Assembly (NCBI GenBank): GCA_013141125.1
Contig: JABFRO010000003.1
Span: 234,458 to 298,457, forward strand
Source of the DNA: Methylophilaceae bacterium
Lineage (GTDB): Bacteria > Pseudomonadota > Gammaproteobacteria > Burkholderiales > Methylophilaceae
DNA: 64,000 nt
Direction: 5' to 3'
Every line of letters starts with the position of its first letter. Positions within the stretch are counted from its first letter, which is position 1. The notes below the pieces were generated by a model. It was not told the DNA's origin and searched no databases. It saw nothing but the letters and a program-made list of their open reading frames with translations. Below are positions 11,265 to 17,714 of the stretch, piece by piece. The position numbers and the translations under genes were made by a program.

Positions 11265-11633
11265 TTATTTGCACAGCACATCGTTACGTGTAGTTTCCGC
11301 AATAGCGGCGACTTCAGCAATTAACGTTTGCGGGACATTGAGTTCTGCCAATGTTTTGCCCAGCAGTTCAACTACTGCATCAAAATGGCTATCGTTCAAG
11401 CCTTGCGCGACCAAATGCGCATGGCCTTTGCGCATGTTTTCACCGGAATAGGTTTGCGGGCCGCCAAAGGCCATGGTTAAAAAGGACTTTTGCTTGGTGG
11501 CTTGTCGTGTCATATCGGTATTGGCGAAAAAATGTTTGATACGGTTGTCGGCCAGGACTTTGCCGTAAAAAATATCTACAGCGGCATTGACGGCTGCTTC
11601 TCCGCCTAATCTTTCATACAATGATGCACTCAT
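11265..11633 (-). CDS. Group 1 truncated haemoglobin
   Basis: 122-residue 2-on-2 globin binding haem, O2 or NO. It starts SLYERLGGEAAVNAAVDIFYGKV and has the FAN...MTRQATKQKSFL helix region, FGGP, and the proximal histidine in KGHAHLV. The ATG at 11633 has AAGGAG upstream and matches the family N-terminus; a longer reading to 11684 does not. It lies just downstream of a c-haem oxidase operon in the same direction, so a role in oxygen or nitric oxide handling is plausible but inferred. Confidence 0.92.
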   Translation of the reverse strand: MSASLYERLGGEAAVNAAVDIFYGKVLADNRIKHFFANTDMTRQATKQKSFLTMAFGGPQTYSGENMRKGHAHLVAQGLNDSHFDAVVELLGKTLAELNVPQTLIAEVAAIAETTRNDVLCK

Positions 11634-11698
11634 AATAATCTCCTTTTGGTTGATAAAGTGGTTAAGGCGGATGAATAAAGCCATCCGCCCTAATGCTG

Positions 11699-12763
11699 CT
11701 ATTTCAGAGTGTTAATCCACTCTGCAATTTGCTTGCCGTCCGCATCCGGCACTTGCGGCATGGGGGGCATGGGCGGATAACCTGGCCAATTTTCAGGCTT
11801 GGGTGCTTTGATCAAGGCAACGACCTGATCAGCACTATAACCCTTGGCCGCTACGTCTTTGTACGCAGGGCCTACCACTTTGACCTGTGCATTATGGCAA
11901 GCCAGGCAGCCGTATTTATCTGCCAAGGCTTGACCAGGATGTATATCTGATTGCGTAAAGGTCCTGGGCTTGTTTTTCTCGGCTTCAAAAGCAGCTAAGG
12001 ATTCTCTTTGGAACACTTCTGTTTTAGCTGCGGAAGCTGCTAATACAGGCTTAATCAGGCCCATACGCATACCGTGGCGCAAGCTGGCCATGGAAATGAT
12101 GGCGATTATCATCACACCGACTATCGTCCATACCCGTGCTGGTGGCAGATCGTCGTTGAAGAAGTCTTTCAGTAGCTGATACATGGCAAACAAGGCCAGC
12201 ACTATGGTGAGAATAATCAGCCAGAAGTAGCCATTCTCAAAGAACGCCTCTATGCCATATTCAGGGAAGCTGAACAACACCAGGGGGCCGATGAAGAAAT
12301 TCAAGGCCGTGGGGATGAGGAACCAGCTTTTTCCGGTACGGGTGAGAATTGCCCCGACTTCTCTATCCATTGCGTCAGTGCTACGGCGTTTATACATGCC
12401 ATACACCAGCATGAATACGCCGGTTACCGCAAAGCTGGCCAGATAGAAATGCACCAGGCGAAAAAAGGTATCAGCACGTAGCAAAACATCCCAGAAGTGT
12501 GTGTTATAAGTCCAGGTGCTGGGAGTCATGGCCAATTGCACGGTGGCCATAAACGCCCAGGGCAGAGTAAAGAACAGCGCGACAGCGACTGCACCTATGA
12601 AAATGTGCAGACTTTTACGATGTTCCAATGCATGCCAAGTGTATTTATACAAATACGACAGCAGGAAGGCAACGACGTTGCCGTAGATGATGTGCAACCA
12701 GTGTGGTGAATTCATGATGGAGGCCGAATAGAACAGCGGCGTAATCAGAATACTCACCAACAA
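11699..12763 (-). CDS. bd-oxidase-like subunit II with C-terminal cytochrome c (3' part of frameshifted gene)
   Basis: Main part of a membrane subunit that is split from its N-terminus by a frameshift. It contains about eight hydrophobic segments, then a C-terminal c-type haem domain with CLACH, a VVGPAY segment, and a distal methionine region (PPMPPMP). The protein resumes in this frame at a VAPLLLVSILITPLF segment, exactly where 12754-13041 goes out of frame. Restoring one base in the G-runs at 12776-12796 (minus strand) gives one continuous protein of about 444 residues. It pairs with the upstream subunit, which also ends in a cytochrome c domain. Electrons could therefore enter through c haems as well as quinol; this is inference. 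Confidence 0.8.
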   Translation of the reverse strand: MLVSILITPLFYSASIMNSPHWLHIIYGNVVAFLLSYLYKYTWHALEHRKSLHIFIGAVAVALFFTLPWAFMATVQLAMTPSTWTYNTHFWDVLLRADTFFRLVHFYLASFAVTGVFMLVYGMYKRRSTDAMDREVGAILTRTGKSWFLIPTALNFFIGPLVLFSFPEYGIEAFFENGYFWLIILTIVLALFAMYQLLKDFFNDDLPPARVWTIVGVMIIAIISMASLRHGMRMGLIKPVLAASAAKTEVFQRESLAAFEAEKNKPRTFTQSDIHPGQALADKYGCLACHNAQVKVVGPAYKDVAAKGYSADQVVALIKAPKPENWPGYPPMPPMPQVPDADGKQIAEWINTLK

Positions 12764-13041
12764 TAGCGGCGCAACACCCCATAGCGCCCCATGTTTTCCG
12801 AAATGGTTACCGGTGTAGTGAGCAAATATCCCACCCGGTCAAACAGCGGATTTTTCTCTCGATGGCCTTTATTGTTGAAATACACCGAGGCTAAGGATGC
12901 CCCCAATAACACGTTAATAAAGAGAATATGTAACACCCAGGCAAATACCAGCAAACCATGGAAAAACGGCTCCATGAAATCCAGCCCCATGGTGGGCAAG
13001 GGCAACGGAATGTCGCCGGGGATGATTCTAAAATCGGTCAT
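12754..13041 (-). CDS. bd-oxidase-like subunit II, N-terminal part before frameshift
   Basis: Encodes the first two membrane segments (MEPFFHGLLVFAWVLHILFI, with a likely haem-ligating His) and reads through PVTISENMG before running out of frame. It continues in the minus-one frame as 11699-12763; the two overlap by ten bases. The start ATG overlaps the stop of the upstream subunit (ATGA). Two nearby runs of four G are the probable lesion site. Whether it is a real pseudogene mutation, a sequencing error or a phase-variable tract cannot be decided here. Confidence 0.75.
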   Translation of the reverse strand: MTDFRIIPGDIPLPLPTMGLDFMEPFFHGLLVFAWVLHILFINVLLGASLASVYFNNKGHREKNPLFDRVGYLLTTPVTISENMGRYGVLRRYCW

Positions 13042-14444
13042 TTTGTCACCTCGTTTGATGTTGTTACTTTGGCAGCTTCTTCACCCGGAAAGTGGTTGTC
13101 ATTTTTTTCCAAAGTGGCCAGAAAAGCCGCCAGTGCATGACGTTCCGCATCCGTGCCGGTAAACGGTGGCATGAAAGGCGTAGCGGCAGAGTTGAGTGAA
13201 CCAATGCGATAGTAAATCGCGGCTTCATCCATGCCTTTAACGCGCGCTTTGATGGGATTAACGCCGTTAATTGTGTGGCAATAACGGCACTGCATTTGGT
13301 ATAAATATTTACCCACAATCAGTTTGTTTTCTTCTGTGACAACGCGATACTCCGGCGGCACAAAAGCGGCATGTTTTAAATAGCCATCTTTATTGAGGTA
13401 AGGCACATCGGCCACGCGCACACCATTGGCATACATGTAGTCGTAGATGATGTAAGGTTTGCGCACAAACTCGCGCACACGCTCAAATTCACCAATCAGA
13501 CCCATGGAGCCAATCAGCATGGTGATGCCCAAAAACAGCGGTGCATTTTTGGGTTTGGTATACAAAGCCACCGCACCCGCCAGTACCATGCCGGATAAAG
13601 CTACCATCAGGTAGGTTGCATATTCAGGGTTGGCCGCCATGCGCCGTGTAATCGCACCCATCCAGAATAAATCCTTGGCTGCCTGCGGAAACTGGTCGTA
13701 ATACCAGGCACCAAAAATAACGAATAACGGAATACAGGCCAACAGAACGCCGCCATATAAACGCATGGCTTTTTGACGTAACTCCATATCTTTTTTGGTG
13801 AAGAGCCAGGTCAACACCATCGCCATTGCCGCTGCCCAGGCAATCGACCAGAAGGTACGGAAACCCAGCGAGGGAAACCAGGATGGATTAAACAGTGCGG
13901 CCATGTAATCCGGCTCGGCGGGGAAGTAGGACTTCAGCCAATTGCCCGGAGTCATCATGAAGCCCAGAATCGCCGTGATAATCGCCATGGTGAACCAGGA
14001 GGCGACTGCATAAGTTAAACCAAGATTGAAGTTTATCTTTTTCCCAGGCGTGCCTAGAGGATATTGCTTCCAGGTGAGAAACCACCACAGCAAGAAGATC
14101 ATCTCAATATTGAAAACAATCCACTCAATAAACCACTTCCAGAAAAACACGCGCAGCAAAGCGCCAATGGCGGCGGGATTAATGATATTGATATGAATCC
14201 ATATCCCAATCCCCGTTAGCGCGCCAATGGCCGTGGCCATAATAAAAAACGTGAACAGGATTTTGTAGGACAAATCATCCAGTTTTTTGTCATTGTTTTT
14301 AATCGCCAACCATTGGCTTAATACCAGAATTATGCTGCCGCCCACCGCTGCGCCGTGTGAGATAAACACATGCAAAATCGCATCAAACGCAAACAACAAC
14401 CTATGACCAATAAACGGCATTTCAAAAATAGGATAATCAAACAT
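13038..14444 (-). CDS. bd-oxidase-like subunit I with C-terminal cytochrome c
   Basis: 468-residue polytopic protein. The first 330 residues have about nine membrane segments with conserved histidines (AILHVFISHG near the N-terminus, GIWIHINIINP) and resemble the CydA-type quinol-oxidase family, but the classic long Q-loop is not obvious. A soluble region follows with the c-haem motif CRYCHTI and a methionine-rich distal part (PFMPPF). bd-like oxidases fused to c-haems have been described in Nitrospira-like chemolithotrophs. The gene is first in an operon with subunit II (four-base overlap) and has a RegA-type palindrome about 100 bp upstream, suggesting redox control. Confidence 0.82.
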   Translation of the reverse strand: MFDYPIFEMPFIGHRLLFAFDAILHVFISHGAAVGGSIILVLSQWLAIKNNDKKLDDLSYKILFTFFIMATAIGALTGIGIWIHINIINPAAIGALLRVFFWKWFIEWIVFNIEMIFLLWWFLTWKQYPLGTPGKKINFNLGLTYAVASWFTMAIITAILGFMMTPGNWLKSYFPAEPDYMAALFNPSWFPSLGFRTFWSIAWAAAMAMVLTWLFTKKDMELRQKAMRLYGGVLLACIPLFVIFGAWYYDQFPQAAKDLFWMGAITRRMAANPEYATYLMVALSGMVLAGAVALYTKPKNAPLFLGITMLIGSMGLIGEFERVREFVRKPYIIYDYMYANGVRVADVPYLNKDGYLKHAAFVPPEYRVVTEENKLIVGKYLYQMQCRYCHTINGVNPIKARVKGMDEAAIYYRIGSLNSAATPFMPPFTGTDAERHALAAFLATLEKNDNHFPGEEAAKVTTSNEVTK

Positions 14445-14880
14445 GCCGCGCCTCCTTCAGGTGATTCATTTCTCCGCTCCCTTAAAGTTTAAAAACATTA
14501 AAATCGCGGCAAATGTTAGGAGGATTTTTACATCAGCGAAAGTGACATATTGCCGCGCGGCAATGTGTCGCAGGGGGAATAAGCAGGGATAAGCCGTGCT
14601 GAAAATCTCGCCGCCGTAAGCAGCCCTCCAAGTAATCGACATCACTCATGGCAAACATTACGGGAGCTACGGCTCCAGTTTTTTTATGATATTTTTAGTT
14701 GGTAGACTTATTGAATTTGACGTAATTAAAGAGTCCTGGGTTATTACAAAAATTAAGTTTGCAATAAAATCAATTTCTCCTAAGATGGCAAGCCTGAGTA
14801 CATTGCTTGGCCGAAAACGACTTGTCTCAATCTATCAATCCTTGAAACGTTTTCACTCAATCTTTATCCATTGAATTTAT
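14445..14880. other. Intergenic region with a RegA-type palindrome
   Basis: This 436-base stretch separates the divergent oxidase operon and the Fic gene. It contains the RegA-type palindrome at 14542-14571. An unrecognised open frame (14686-14874) has no ribosome site or family match and is not called as a gene. Confidence 0.6.
14542..14571. promoter_or_regulatory. RegA/PrrA-type binding palindrome upstream of the oxidase operon
   Basis: Two adjacent half-site pairs: GTGAC-N5-GCCGC (14542-14556) and GCGGC-N5-GTCGC (14557-14571). The second fits the RegA/PrrA pattern GCGNC-Nx-GNCGC exactly. It lies about 100 bp before the oxidase start. The same architecture occurs just upstream of regB at 15707-15736. 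Confidence 0.6.
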
Positions 14881-15636
14881 ATGTCCACTAAAAGCGCACT
14901 TCTTTTTACTTATAGAGAGGCAGAAGTACAGGCCTCAAGAGATCGCTTGTCACTGCTGCCAGACAAACGTCGAGCCTTATTTATGGCCGAGCGTGGGCGT
15001 GTTGATTTTGTTTATAACACGGCGGCTTTAGAGGGGAATCCATTCACCTATCCTGAAGTTAAAACGCTGCTGGATGGCATTACCGTTGGCGGACACAAAC
15101 TCACGGATTTAGAGCAAGTGCTGCGGTTAAATCGGGCTTTATCGCATTTGATTGGATTGGTGAAAGAAAACAAATTTCAATTTGATGCAAAAACGGCCTG
15201 TGAAATACAAGGCATTGTGGCATGCGATGAGGCGCTGACATGGGGCAAGTTTCGTGATGGCGGTGTTGAAATTGGCGGTACAAGTTACAAGCCGCCCAAA
15301 GCTGAAAACCTTGCGGAAATTTTTGCTCGTGGTGAACAAGCGCTCAACGCCATGGACGACCCTATTTTTAAAGCTTTTCTGATTTTTTTATGGGGCAGTC
15401 TCAATCAGTTTTTTTATGACGGAAACAAACGAACTTCTCGTTTTTTAGCAAACGGGGTGTTAATGAGCACAGGCTTTCCACCGGTAATGATTCAAGCGAA
15501 AGATCAATTGGCTTATAACCAGGTGATGACGCGTTTTTATGATAGCCAAGAGGGAACAGAAGCTTTGGTTTGGTTTTATGAATACTACCGTGAGCGTATT
15601 GCAGGGCTTGGTTTTGATGTCCCTCCAATGCTGTGA
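14881..15636 (+). CDS. Fic-family protein with substituted catalytic histidine
   Basis: 251-residue Fic-fold protein; active members transfer AMP or other phosphates to target hydroxyls. The Fic core reads QFFYDGNKRTSR at 176-187, aligning exactly with HxFx(D/E)GN(G/K)RxxR except that the catalytic His is Gln176. Asp180, Gly181, Asn182, Arg184 and Arg187 remain. An intact class II inhibitory motif (TAALEGN, 47-53) precedes it. The His-to-Gln change predicts loss of ordinary AMP transfer. A binding-only or other role, or an alternative base, is possible. No antitoxin neighbour is present. The start ATG is weakly supported by a ribosome site. Confidence 0.85.
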   Translation: MSTKSALLFTYREAEVQASRDRLSLLPDKRRALFMAERGRVDFVYNTAALEGNPFTYPEVKTLLDGITVGGHKLTDLEQVLRLNRALSHLIGLVKENKFQFDAKTACEIQGIVACDEALTWGKFRDGGVEIGGTSYKPPKAENLAEIFARGEQALNAMDDPIFKAFLIFLWGSLNQFFYDGNKRTSRFLANGVLMSTGFPPVMIQAKDQLAYNQVMTRFYDSQEGTEALVWFYEYYRERIAGLGFDVPPML

Positions 15637-15706
15637 GCTTTACACCGGATGCCAGTTTTATATGACGTTTTAGTCAATACAAAAACTACGCTTGGCATAA
15701 GTAAGA

Positions 15707-15736
15707 GCGGCATATTGCCGCGCGGCAATATGCCGC
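15707..15736. promoter_or_regulatory. Perfect 30-bp RegA/PrrA-type palindrome upstream of regB
   Basis: The stretch is fully self-complementary. It is two tandem copies of GCGGC-N5-GCCGC (15707-15721 and 15722-15736), each fitting the RegA/PrrA site GCGNC-Nx-GNCGC. It ends 49 bp before the regB start, suggesting autoregulation by the RegA encoded downstream. Confidence 0.65.
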
Positions 15737-15785
15737 AGTACAAACAGACCTGAATATCAACAGTGTTTTGTATAATGGGCATACC

Positions 15786-17090
15786 ATGAATTTGTCCATT
15801 TCCGATAACGCTACTTTTGTTGAAAGCGCCTCGCGCCGCAACTTGCAACGGCTGTTCATGTTGCGCAATGTGCTGACGGTTTTTCTACTGTTCGCCGCAT
15901 TAAGTTTAGCCTTTTTAAATATCCCACTGCCCAAGTTGCCCATAGGCATCACCATGAGCGGCATGTTATTGCTGAATCTGATTACTTGGCGCAGATTGCA
16001 GAATCCTGAAAATATCAGCGAGTTGGAATTGCTGGCGCAATTGCTGGGGGATATTGCCGCGCTGACGGTGTTGTTTTATTACACCGGTGGCTATAGCAAT
16101 CCGTTTGTATGGATGTATTTGTTGCCGCCCACAGTGGCGGCGGTGGCGCTGCCGCGTGTTCATGCCTGGTTACTAACTGCGGTGGCAGTCGCGTGTTATT
16201 CGGCGCTGGTGTTTTTTTATGTGCCGCTTTCGCATTTGCATATGCATTACATTGAAGGCCGAAATCTGGATATACATCTGGTTGGCATGTGGATGGGTTT
16301 TGTCGTCAGCGCCGGCATTGTGGCTTTTTTTGTGGCGCGTATTGGGCAGAATTTGCGTGATTATGATCGCCTGATCGCCGTCGCCAGAGAAGGTGCTTTG
16401 GAGAGTGAGCGCATGATGGCGCTGGGCACCTTGGCCGCCAGTGCGGCGCATGAGCTGGGCACACCGCTGGCAACCATGGCCATACTCACCAGGGAAATGC
16501 AGCTGGATATTGAACATCCGGAAGAGGCGGAGGATGATCTGGCGAGCAAATTGAATATACTCAGTACGCAGATTGGCCGTTGCAAGGAAATTCTGTCCTC
16601 GCTTTCTGCCTCATCCGGTGCAGATAGAGCCGGGGCAGGGCAGGCGTTGACGATTAGCGCGTTTTTGCGTAGCACCATCGCCCGCTGGCAGGATACGCGA
16701 CCGGCTACTATTCTGGATTTCAGCCAAATGCCTTTTGTGCATGATCCGCAAATTTTTACCGACCGCACCTTGAGTCAGGCTTTGCAGAATTTGCTGGATA
16801 ACGCCGCCGATGCCTCGCCCGAGCGCATCACCATGCAAGCCGAATGGAACGAGAAAGGCCTGTTTCTTAAAATTCGGGATTACGGCACCGGCTTCAGCAC
16901 GGAAGCCGCCGCAAAAGCAGGGACACCGTTTTTTACTTCAAAAAACGAGCATGGCCTGGGGCTGGGGCTATATCTGACGCGTGCCATTTTGGCGCGTTAT
17001 AACGCTACGTTGGCCTTGGATAATCAAGCCGATGGCGGTGTACTCACGCAAGTGTATTTACCGTTAAATCAATTAAAAATTTCCATATGA
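15786..17090 (+). CDS. regB: RegB/PrrB/RoxS-type redox sensor histidine kinase
   Basis: 434-residue membrane kinase sensing respiratory redox state. About six hydrophobic segments fill residues 25-190. The ubiquinone-binding heptad GGxxNPF is present as GGYSNPF at 101-107. The H-box has phospho-acceptor His222 in AAHELGTPLAT. The redox cysteine is Cys266 in GRCKEIL, matching the regulatory Cys of RegB. N, G1 (DYGTGF) and G2 (GLGLGLYLTRAIL) boxes complete the ATPase. The ATG at 15786 is preferred over an upstream TTG; it has no Shine-Dalgarno, and a TATAAT lies only nine bases upstream. It is followed 27 bases later by regA. Confidence 0.93.
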   Translation: MNLSISDNATFVESASRRNLQRLFMLRNVLTVFLLFAALSLAFLNIPLPKLPIGITMSGMLLLNLITWRRLQNPENISELELLAQLLGDIAALTVLFYYTGGYSNPFVWMYLLPPTVAAVALPRVHAWLLTAVAVACYSALVFFYVPLSHLHMHYIEGRNLDIHLVGMWMGFVVSAGIVAFFVARIGQNLRDYDRLIAVAREGALESERMMALGTLAASAAHELGTPLATMAILTREMQLDIEHPEEAEDDLASKLNILSTQIGRCKEILSSLSASSGADRAGAGQALTISAFLRSTIARWQDTRPATILDFSQMPFVHDPQIFTDRTLSQALQNLLDNAADASPERITMQAEWNEKGLFLKIRDYGTGFSTEAAAKAGTPFFTSKNEHGLGLGLYLTRAILARYNATLALDNQADGGVLTQVYLPLNQLKISI

Positions 17091-17117: not shown

Positions 17118-17714
17118 ATGAATGACAGCGCCACAAGCAATGATTTTGCCGTAAACAAGGAATCCGCCACTCTGCGCCCCAGTTTGCTGTTGGTTGACGA
17201 CGACGATACTTTTCGTGCTGTGTTGGGTAAAGTCATGAAAAGGCGCGGCTTCGAGGTCAGCATGGCCAATAGTGCCGAAGTTGCCTGGCAATCGGTACAA
17301 CAAGATCCGCCGGAATATGCCGTCATCGACCTGAAAATGGGTGGTCAATCCGGCTTGGTATTGGTCAGGCAGATCAATGCGCTCAATGCCGGTACTAAAA
17401 TGGTGGTGCTCACCGGTTACGCCAGCATCGCCACGGCGGTTGAATCCATCAAGCTGGGTGCCGTTCATTATTTGGCCAAGCCGGTAGATGCGGACGATAT
17501 TATTGCCGCTTTTGACAAAACCGAAGGTGATGCCGAAGCTGCTGTGGCCGCTAATCCGCTCTCCATTGACAGACTGGAATGGGAGCATATTCAACGCATT
17601 TTGGCTGAAAATGATGGCAATATTTCTGTCACCGCGCGCGTGTTGAATATGCATAGACGCACTTTGCAACGAAAGCTCAGCAAACATCCCAGCAAAAGAC
17701 CCGTTCCGCAGTAG
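17118..17714 (+). CDS. regA: RegA/PrrA/RoxR/ActR-type response regulator
   Basis: 198-residue DNA-binding regulator phosphorylated by RegB. The receiver has the acidic cluster VDDDD, phospho-acceptor Asp71 in VIDLKM, the conserved TGYASIATAVE helix and the KP dipeptide (LAKPVDADDI). A short linker leads to the Fis-type HTH: SIDRLEWEHIQRIL, then TARVLNMHRRTLQRKL, the very conserved RegA recognition helix. Known family targets are respiratory oxidases and redox genes. RegA-type palindromes upstream of regB and of the oxidase operon fit that. Confidence 0.95.
   Translation: MNDSATSNDFAVNKESATLRPSLLLVDDDDTFRAVLGKVMKRRGFEVSMANSAEVAWQSVQQDPPEYAVIDLKMGGQSGLVLVRQINALNAGTKMVVLTGYASIATAVESIKLGAVHYLAKPVDADDIIAAFDKTEGDAEAAVAANPLSIDRLEWEHIQRILAENDGNISVTARVLNMHRRTLQRKLSKHPSKRPVPQ

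Follow-up and report, generated by a model that had tools for sequence, protein, structure and literature searches.

Paired 15-bp boxes upstream of a bd-like oxidase operon and of regBA in a Methylophilaceae genome as probable doubled RegA operators

Regulators of the RegA type control respiration in many proteobacteria. Their sites in Rhodobacter and Bradyrhizobium (RegA, PrrA and RegR) are, like the boxes described here, 15-bp imperfect inverted repeats with G-rich and C-rich halves, and the published consensus sequences, as quoted in PMC5506826, are GNGRCRTTNNGNCGC for RegR, YSCGGC(5)GWCRMA for PrrA and SSGNVRDNHYSNCSS for RegA. Most of the tested promoters of B. japonicum are described as having two putative boxes (PMC4064962), and autoregulation of regBA is reported in other bacteria (PMC5506826). 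Two published attempts are recorded as ending without a usable motif for regulators of this type, one by ChIP-seq in R. sphaeroides (PMC4263372) and one in Acidithiobacillus ferrooxidans (PMC5506826). RegA is also reported to multimerise on DNA, for reasons given there as unclear (PMC5506826).

In the window, by which we mean the whole 64,000-nucleotide stretch of Methylophilaceae DNA analysed here, there are two 30-mers, each built of two abutting 15-bp boxes with the box consensus GYGRCANNNTGYCRC:

14542-14556: RegA-type box 1 (oxidase-proximal), GTGACATATTGCCGC, 12 of 12 fixed positions of GYGRCANNNTGYCRC
14557-14571: RegA-type box 2, abutting box 1, GCGGCAATGTGTCGC, 12 of 12 fixed positions
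15707-15721: RegA-type box 3, GCGGCATATTGCCGC, 12 of 12 fixed positions, half of a perfect 30-bp palindrome
15722-15736: RegA-type box 4 (regB-proximal), GCGGCAATATGCCGC, 12 of 12 fixed positions

The first-pass annotation had placed a perfect two-unit palindrome of 30 bp at 15707-15736, and this is what the sequence holds, with the same coordinates; its arm of 15 makes it the longest spacer-less palindrome in the window, where the next arms are 8. The same layout had been claimed for 14542-14571, and here too two 15-bp units abut, with 26 of 30 bases identical to the other site and with the perfect palindrome limited to the inner 16 bp (14549-14564). A REP-like or otherwise scattered repeat is ruled out, since the core TTGCCGCGCGGCAA has two exact copies in the 3,206,422-base genome, both in these 30-mers. 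The doubled pattern GNGRCN5GCCGCGCGGCN5GYCNC likewise has exact matches in the genome at these two sites only, and allowing up to three mismatches adds five forward matches (three mismatches each) versus seven for the reversed control.

The proposed fit to the RegA/PrrA consensus held for the boxes themselves, which are of the published type, GYGRC-N5-GYCRC fitting all four and the strict GCGNC-N5-GNCGC three (box 1 has GTGAC), but not for the plain pattern as a genome-wide predictor: GYGRCN5GYCRC is not enriched, with 77 matches versus 93 for the reversed control. With the A and T at the spacer edges added (GYGRCANNNTGYCRC), there are 157 matches in this genome versus 71 reversed at up to one mismatch. 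The sequence of the sites, their conservation, their co-occurrence with regA and their position relative to -10-like elements are observed directly. We consider it highly probable on these comparative grounds that both palindromes are doubled RegA operators, one of the oxidase operon and one of regBA.

The genes around the sites are as follows:

11699-13041, minus strand: bd-like oxidase subunit II with a C-terminal cytochrome c domain (ORFs 12754-13041 and 11699-12763)
13038-14444, minus strand: bd-like oxidase subunit I with a C-terminal cytochrome c domain (Cytochrome_CBB3)
14881-15636, plus strand: Fic-domain gene of 251 aa between the two proposed operators (PF02661, 5.3e-08)
15786-17090, plus strand: regB, redox-sensing histidine kinase (NF033792 ActS/PrrB/RegB, 240 bits, curated cut-off 350)
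17118-17714, plus strand: regA, response regulator with a Fis-type helix-turn-helix (NF033791 ActR/PrrA, 201 bits, cut-off 250; Response_reg and HTH_8)

Earlier coordinates for the two sites were correct, and the fic gene between them had gone unmentioned. Neither regB nor regA reaches the curated NCBIfam equivalog cut-off, though these models are the best matches by far, and it is on rank, motifs and gene order, not on the cut-off, that the two genes are predicted to be orthologues of RegB and RegA. For regB the ATG at 15786 is preferred as start over the TTG at 15768, which falls just ahead of the putative -10. The RegB translation holds the H-box AHELGTPL, the sequence GGYSNPF, which corresponds to the quinone motif GGxxNPF, and the segment RCKEIL, which we take to be the site of RegB's equivalent redox-active cysteine. 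Both the quinone motif and Cys-265 are named as RegB features in PMC8191878. In RegA, alignment shows that the recognition-helix segment LNMHRRTLQR is common to PrrA 1umq and 3rqi.

A family profile of oxidase subunit I matches 5doq_A, a bd oxidase subunit I (E 8.5e-11), and Pfam CydA gives no match in the protein. The top Foldseek match of its predicted structure is also 5doq_A; this is a low-confidence model (mean pLDDT 60.8), used as support to the sequence profile and nothing more. A one-base deletion near 12798 leaves subunit II in two frames, where all five aligned relatives have a single continuous frame; the frameshift (12690-12860, minus strand) would reflect either a pseudogene or an assembly error. 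Directly after the oxidase operon is a truncated-haemoglobin gene (11265-11684, minus strand).

Exact single boxes number 13 in this genome, four of them in the window, six inside predicted genes and three intergenic. All three of the latter precede respiratory genes, as the first-pass annotation had predicted of the motif: one precedes COX1 (a haem-copper oxidase) beside SCO1/SenC, one a 66-aa open reading frame followed by cydA, and one DUF1924 with a dihaem cytochrome c. GTDB contigs scanned for the pattern gave at least 119 stretches with at least 123 sites, of which, among the matches listed, 77 are strict doubled sites with A and T in both units. A doubled motif found mainly inside genes had been named as counting against a regulatory role; among the matches listed, all 77 strict sites lie outside genes, over-extended start calls being allowed for, and for 69 of them a gene starts within 300 bp and faces outward. 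Arrays of two units account for 90 of 94, and longer arrays are rare outside the oxidase context.

The proposed operator recurs before regB. Of 26 ortholog loci (27 less L100, on whose stretch no RegB was found), 17 have the box GYGRCANNNTGYCRC in the 300 bp before regB and 20 have the looser GYGRCN5GYCRC there, while six (L076, L088, L095, L099, L101 and L102) have neither. Across the same 26 loci, 22 boxes fall in the 7.8 kb before regB versus 13 in 211.6 kb elsewhere, and the reversed pattern scores 0 in both. In the class-wide sample of 369 genomes a stricter doubled pattern has exact matches in 20, against 0 for the reversed control. Of 19 loci from other genomes, a set without the sites in G516 and G285, 13 have a regB start no more than 155 bp from the doubled box, one of them with the box overlapping an extrapolated start. 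At L286 the distance to regB is 796 bp, and the G285 site probably also precedes regB, judged by its distance to regA.

The doubled box also tracks the presence of regA. Of 187 genomes of the family, 72 have a RegA ortholog (E <= 1e-35) and 23 have the exact doubled box, every one of the 23 belonging to those 72; the association gives a Fisher value of 6e-11 without the genome studied here and holds within genus g7 (16/0/26/10, p = 0.016). The exact doubled box is absent from the other 49 of the 72. Allowing up to one mismatch raises the count to 38 of 187 genomes, but this search is noisy (48 forward versus 30 reversed matches, summed from the table), and seven of the 15 one-mismatch genomes have RegA. 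In the class sample regA is found in 120 of 369 genomes (E <= 1e-25) and in 18 of the 20 with a doubled box (p = 2e-7 without this genome).

It is nonetheless conceivable that the doubled box is the operator of some other regulator, for example a metal- or redox-responsive one that controls TonB-receptor genes, with regBA as one of its targets. TonB-dependent receptors are the commonest targets among the matches listed, where 24 of 89 target proteins of at least 100 aa have a TonB-receptor plug domain, ahead of nine RegB-like kinases, with five matching a TonB copper-receptor model, and many of these doubled sites are outside the family; regA was not found in the remaining two of the 20 class genomes with a doubled box, G363 and G522, the latter 78% complete. 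An outside check at feo points the same way. In the methanotroph Methylomonas DH-1, ChIP is reported to place RegA at the feo promoter, the single case of a methanotroph promoter for which RegA binding has been shown in this way, and to detect no RegA at the TonB-dependent receptor promoter tested (PMC13274454). We found no box at 11 of 12 positions or better before feoB at 21 loci in 18 Methylococcales-type genomes (0 in 27.3 kb), a sample to which DH-1 itself does not belong. Against another regulator stand the association with regA in both the family and the class samples and the 13 of 19 loci at which the doubled box directly precedes regB in other genomes. The box also fits a Fis-type helix-turn-helix, on the basis of Fis-site geometry. 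Its 15-bp length, G...C ends and dyad agree with the RegR/PrrA consensus as published (PMC5506826). Taken with this evidence, a different cognate regulator seems unlikely.

Two further features of these sites were recorded. TonB-receptor targets outside the family are found in methanotrophs, ammonia oxidisers and others (L142-L260; for example L258:5099-7258 and L248:5024-7438). A PF13557-like outer-membrane protein gene repeatedly adjoins the doubled box (L251:4600-5781, L273, L278, L279, L281 and L285) and is mostly divergent from regB across it, parallel to the arrangement of the oxidase in the window.

Returning to RegA operators, the link between the oxidase and regBA can be followed in relatives. 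Subunit I is present in seven of 187 family genomes, this one included. The six relatives have their oxidase facing away from regB (G035, G161, G162, G171 and G181) or from a regA-like gene (G173), and in all six the fic gene is absent from between them. Counted in 15-bp register at a threshold of 9/12, the shared divergent region has two boxes in G035 and G173, four in G161 and G171, five in G181, and three plus two, 44 bp apart, in G162; in the window the count is two plus two, the pairs separated by fic. The suggestion that RegA-type sites tie regBA to the oxidase operon thus gains support from 6/6 oxidase-bearing relatives in which the oxidase diverges from regBA or a regA-like gene across the same boxes, the binding of RegA being predicted from sequence. 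A Methylotenera MAG (L173) has the same oxidase/regBA region.

Several related arrangements were seen. In G173 (L120, G173:C49) the oxidase is opposite a 51%-identical regA-like gene, and a different contig carries regBA together with a doubled box of its own. A Methylobacter sp. MAG (L219, a methanotroph) has a 41%-identical subunit I homologue with a doubled box ~450 bp upstream, and at L049 (G096:C1 near 2344822 and 2345394) two doubled boxes 572 bp apart, one with one mismatch, adjoin a gene whose cytochrome c domain is similar to the one in subunit II. A 37-row tree places the RegB of this genome in one clade with g7 rows, G204 rows and G013 (99/97). Separate inheritance of the oxidase-linked RegB as one lineage is not supported by this tree, which needs four label changes, a number as low being reached in 21 of 500 shuffles.

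The twin palindromes flank fic and are alike at 26 of 30 positions, and fic is missing from the corresponding place in relatives, which is also what would be expected if they were the flanking repeats of a mobile or duplicated fic-bearing segment and not operators. This is largely refuted by the fic-less relatives, in which the same boxes occupy the same intergenic region in the same register and at the same -10 distance, and the doubled box also stands before regB in many genomes whose stretch gives no match to this fic gene; we regard it as very improbable, although one operator may have been copied during the arrival of fic. From comparison of these loci, the twin operators of the window are best understood as marking both ends of what was a single divergent control region in the ancestor, into which fic was inserted; we infer this insertion from the absence of fic in the relatives. 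Either the ancestral region had four boxes that were then split, or it had two that were then copied.

The positions of the boxes relative to conserved hexamers define two putative promoters:

14513-14518, minus strand: putative -10 of the oxidase operon, TAACAT, 23 bp from box 1 (best common offset, 7 genomes)
15771-15776, plus strand: putative -10 of regB, TATAAT, 34 bp from box 4 (sequence and distance table, 39 loci)

On the oxidase side the distance from the operator edge to the -10-like hexamer is 23 bp in all seven genomes, with a mean of 4.43 of 6 matches, a score equalled at any offset by none of 5000 shuffles. On the regB side distances were called at 39 of 48 loci (eight have a box but no hexamer, and L096 has no unit) and are 23-25 bp in 21, 34-35 bp in 12 and 45 bp in two, with single loci at 27, 29, 32 and 62 bp. 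The 34-bp cases include many close relatives, eight of 11 being from genus g7. For 24 genus/distance pairs the Rayleigh statistic gives R of 0.68-0.73 at 10-11 bp, and 0.665 also at 12 bp because the 23-25 mode dominates, so that the main basis for a helical-turn reading is the two further modes, 34-35 and 45, the four single distances being off phase. Steps of this size, ~11 bp, suggest an activator that depends on the face of the helix and sits beside the -35 region or one or two turns above it. Both -10 elements are putative, being placed solely by their position across genomes, and a sigma-70 consensus scan finds no promoter at either. A role of the palindromes as nucleic-acid structures (terminator, attenuator or cruciform) is hardly credible, for although there is a terminator-like match at 15736-15707 on the minus strand, no minus-strand gene is seen to run into it, regB is directed away from it, the plus strand has no T run after the palindrome, the boxes are upstream and not downstream of the proposed -10 elements, and relatives have single, undoubled boxes at the same place before regB.

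For doubled RegA operators we propose the following mechanism. One RegA dimer would occupy each 15-bp Fis-type palindromic box (GYGRCA-N3-TGYCRC), with two dimers per operator. The bd-like oxidase operon and regBA form two divergent units, each of which would have its operator immediately ahead of its -35 region. RegA beside RNA polymerase would activate the oxidase operon and also regBA itself (autoactivation). A contiguous row of 2-5 boxes would serve both promoters in the relatives, and in this genome fic, lying between the box pairs, would leave one pair for each promoter. Binding by RegA, the dimer stoichiometry and the sign of regulation are what we infer here from the arrangement of the sites.

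A broader generalisation, to which we give even chances, is that beta- and gammaproteobacterial RegA recognises a sharp 15-bp box and binds as side-by-side dimers in contiguous 15-bp register, two at most targets and up to five at shared divergent promoters, with the operator next to the -35 or one or two turns up; the paired regB operator would be ancestral and general, would reach TonB-dependent receptor genes, and would be the missing sequence code for RegA multimerisation. If a sharp, doubled, positioned operator is indeed conserved before regB across genera, RegA regulons would become predictable in beta- and gammaproteobacteria, and the question of the RegA multimer is directly testable with 15-bp and 30-bp oligonucleotides. 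No title or abstract among the open papers searched, a set with few subscription papers, describes a doubled 15-bp RegA operator.

The nearest functional parallels are in bacteria where RegA-type regulators are tied to bd oxidases. RegA of A. ferrooxidans is reported to bind the reg and cyd promoter regions and to multimerise on DNA, and by the same account no RegA motif could be predicted for it (PMC5506826). RoxR/RegA activates bd oxidases according to PMC8191878 and PMC11742914, and PMC9104464 points to GCGGCAATTTAGAGC at cyd as a potential RoxR site. Unlike the window, the accessible descriptions of A. ferrooxidans RegBA and of Burkholderia RegAB/RoxSR include no paired-box layout. The oxidase resembles the bd-like oxidases of Nitrospina and Nitrospira, which are described as having N-terminal CydA similarity and as encoded beside electron-transfer cytochromes, as in the window (PMC3578206), and is set apart from them by the C-terminal cytochrome c domain of its protein. 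As for the sites, the alphaproteobacterial ones are described as degenerate and variably spaced (PMC5506826, PMC4064962, PMC4263372), in contrast to which the box of the window is sharp (GYGRCANNNTGYCRC) and its pairs abut before regB in a fixed 15-bp register in many genera, in keeping with the first-pass view, as judged against these published descriptions, that the double-site layout is tighter than that of usual RegA sites.
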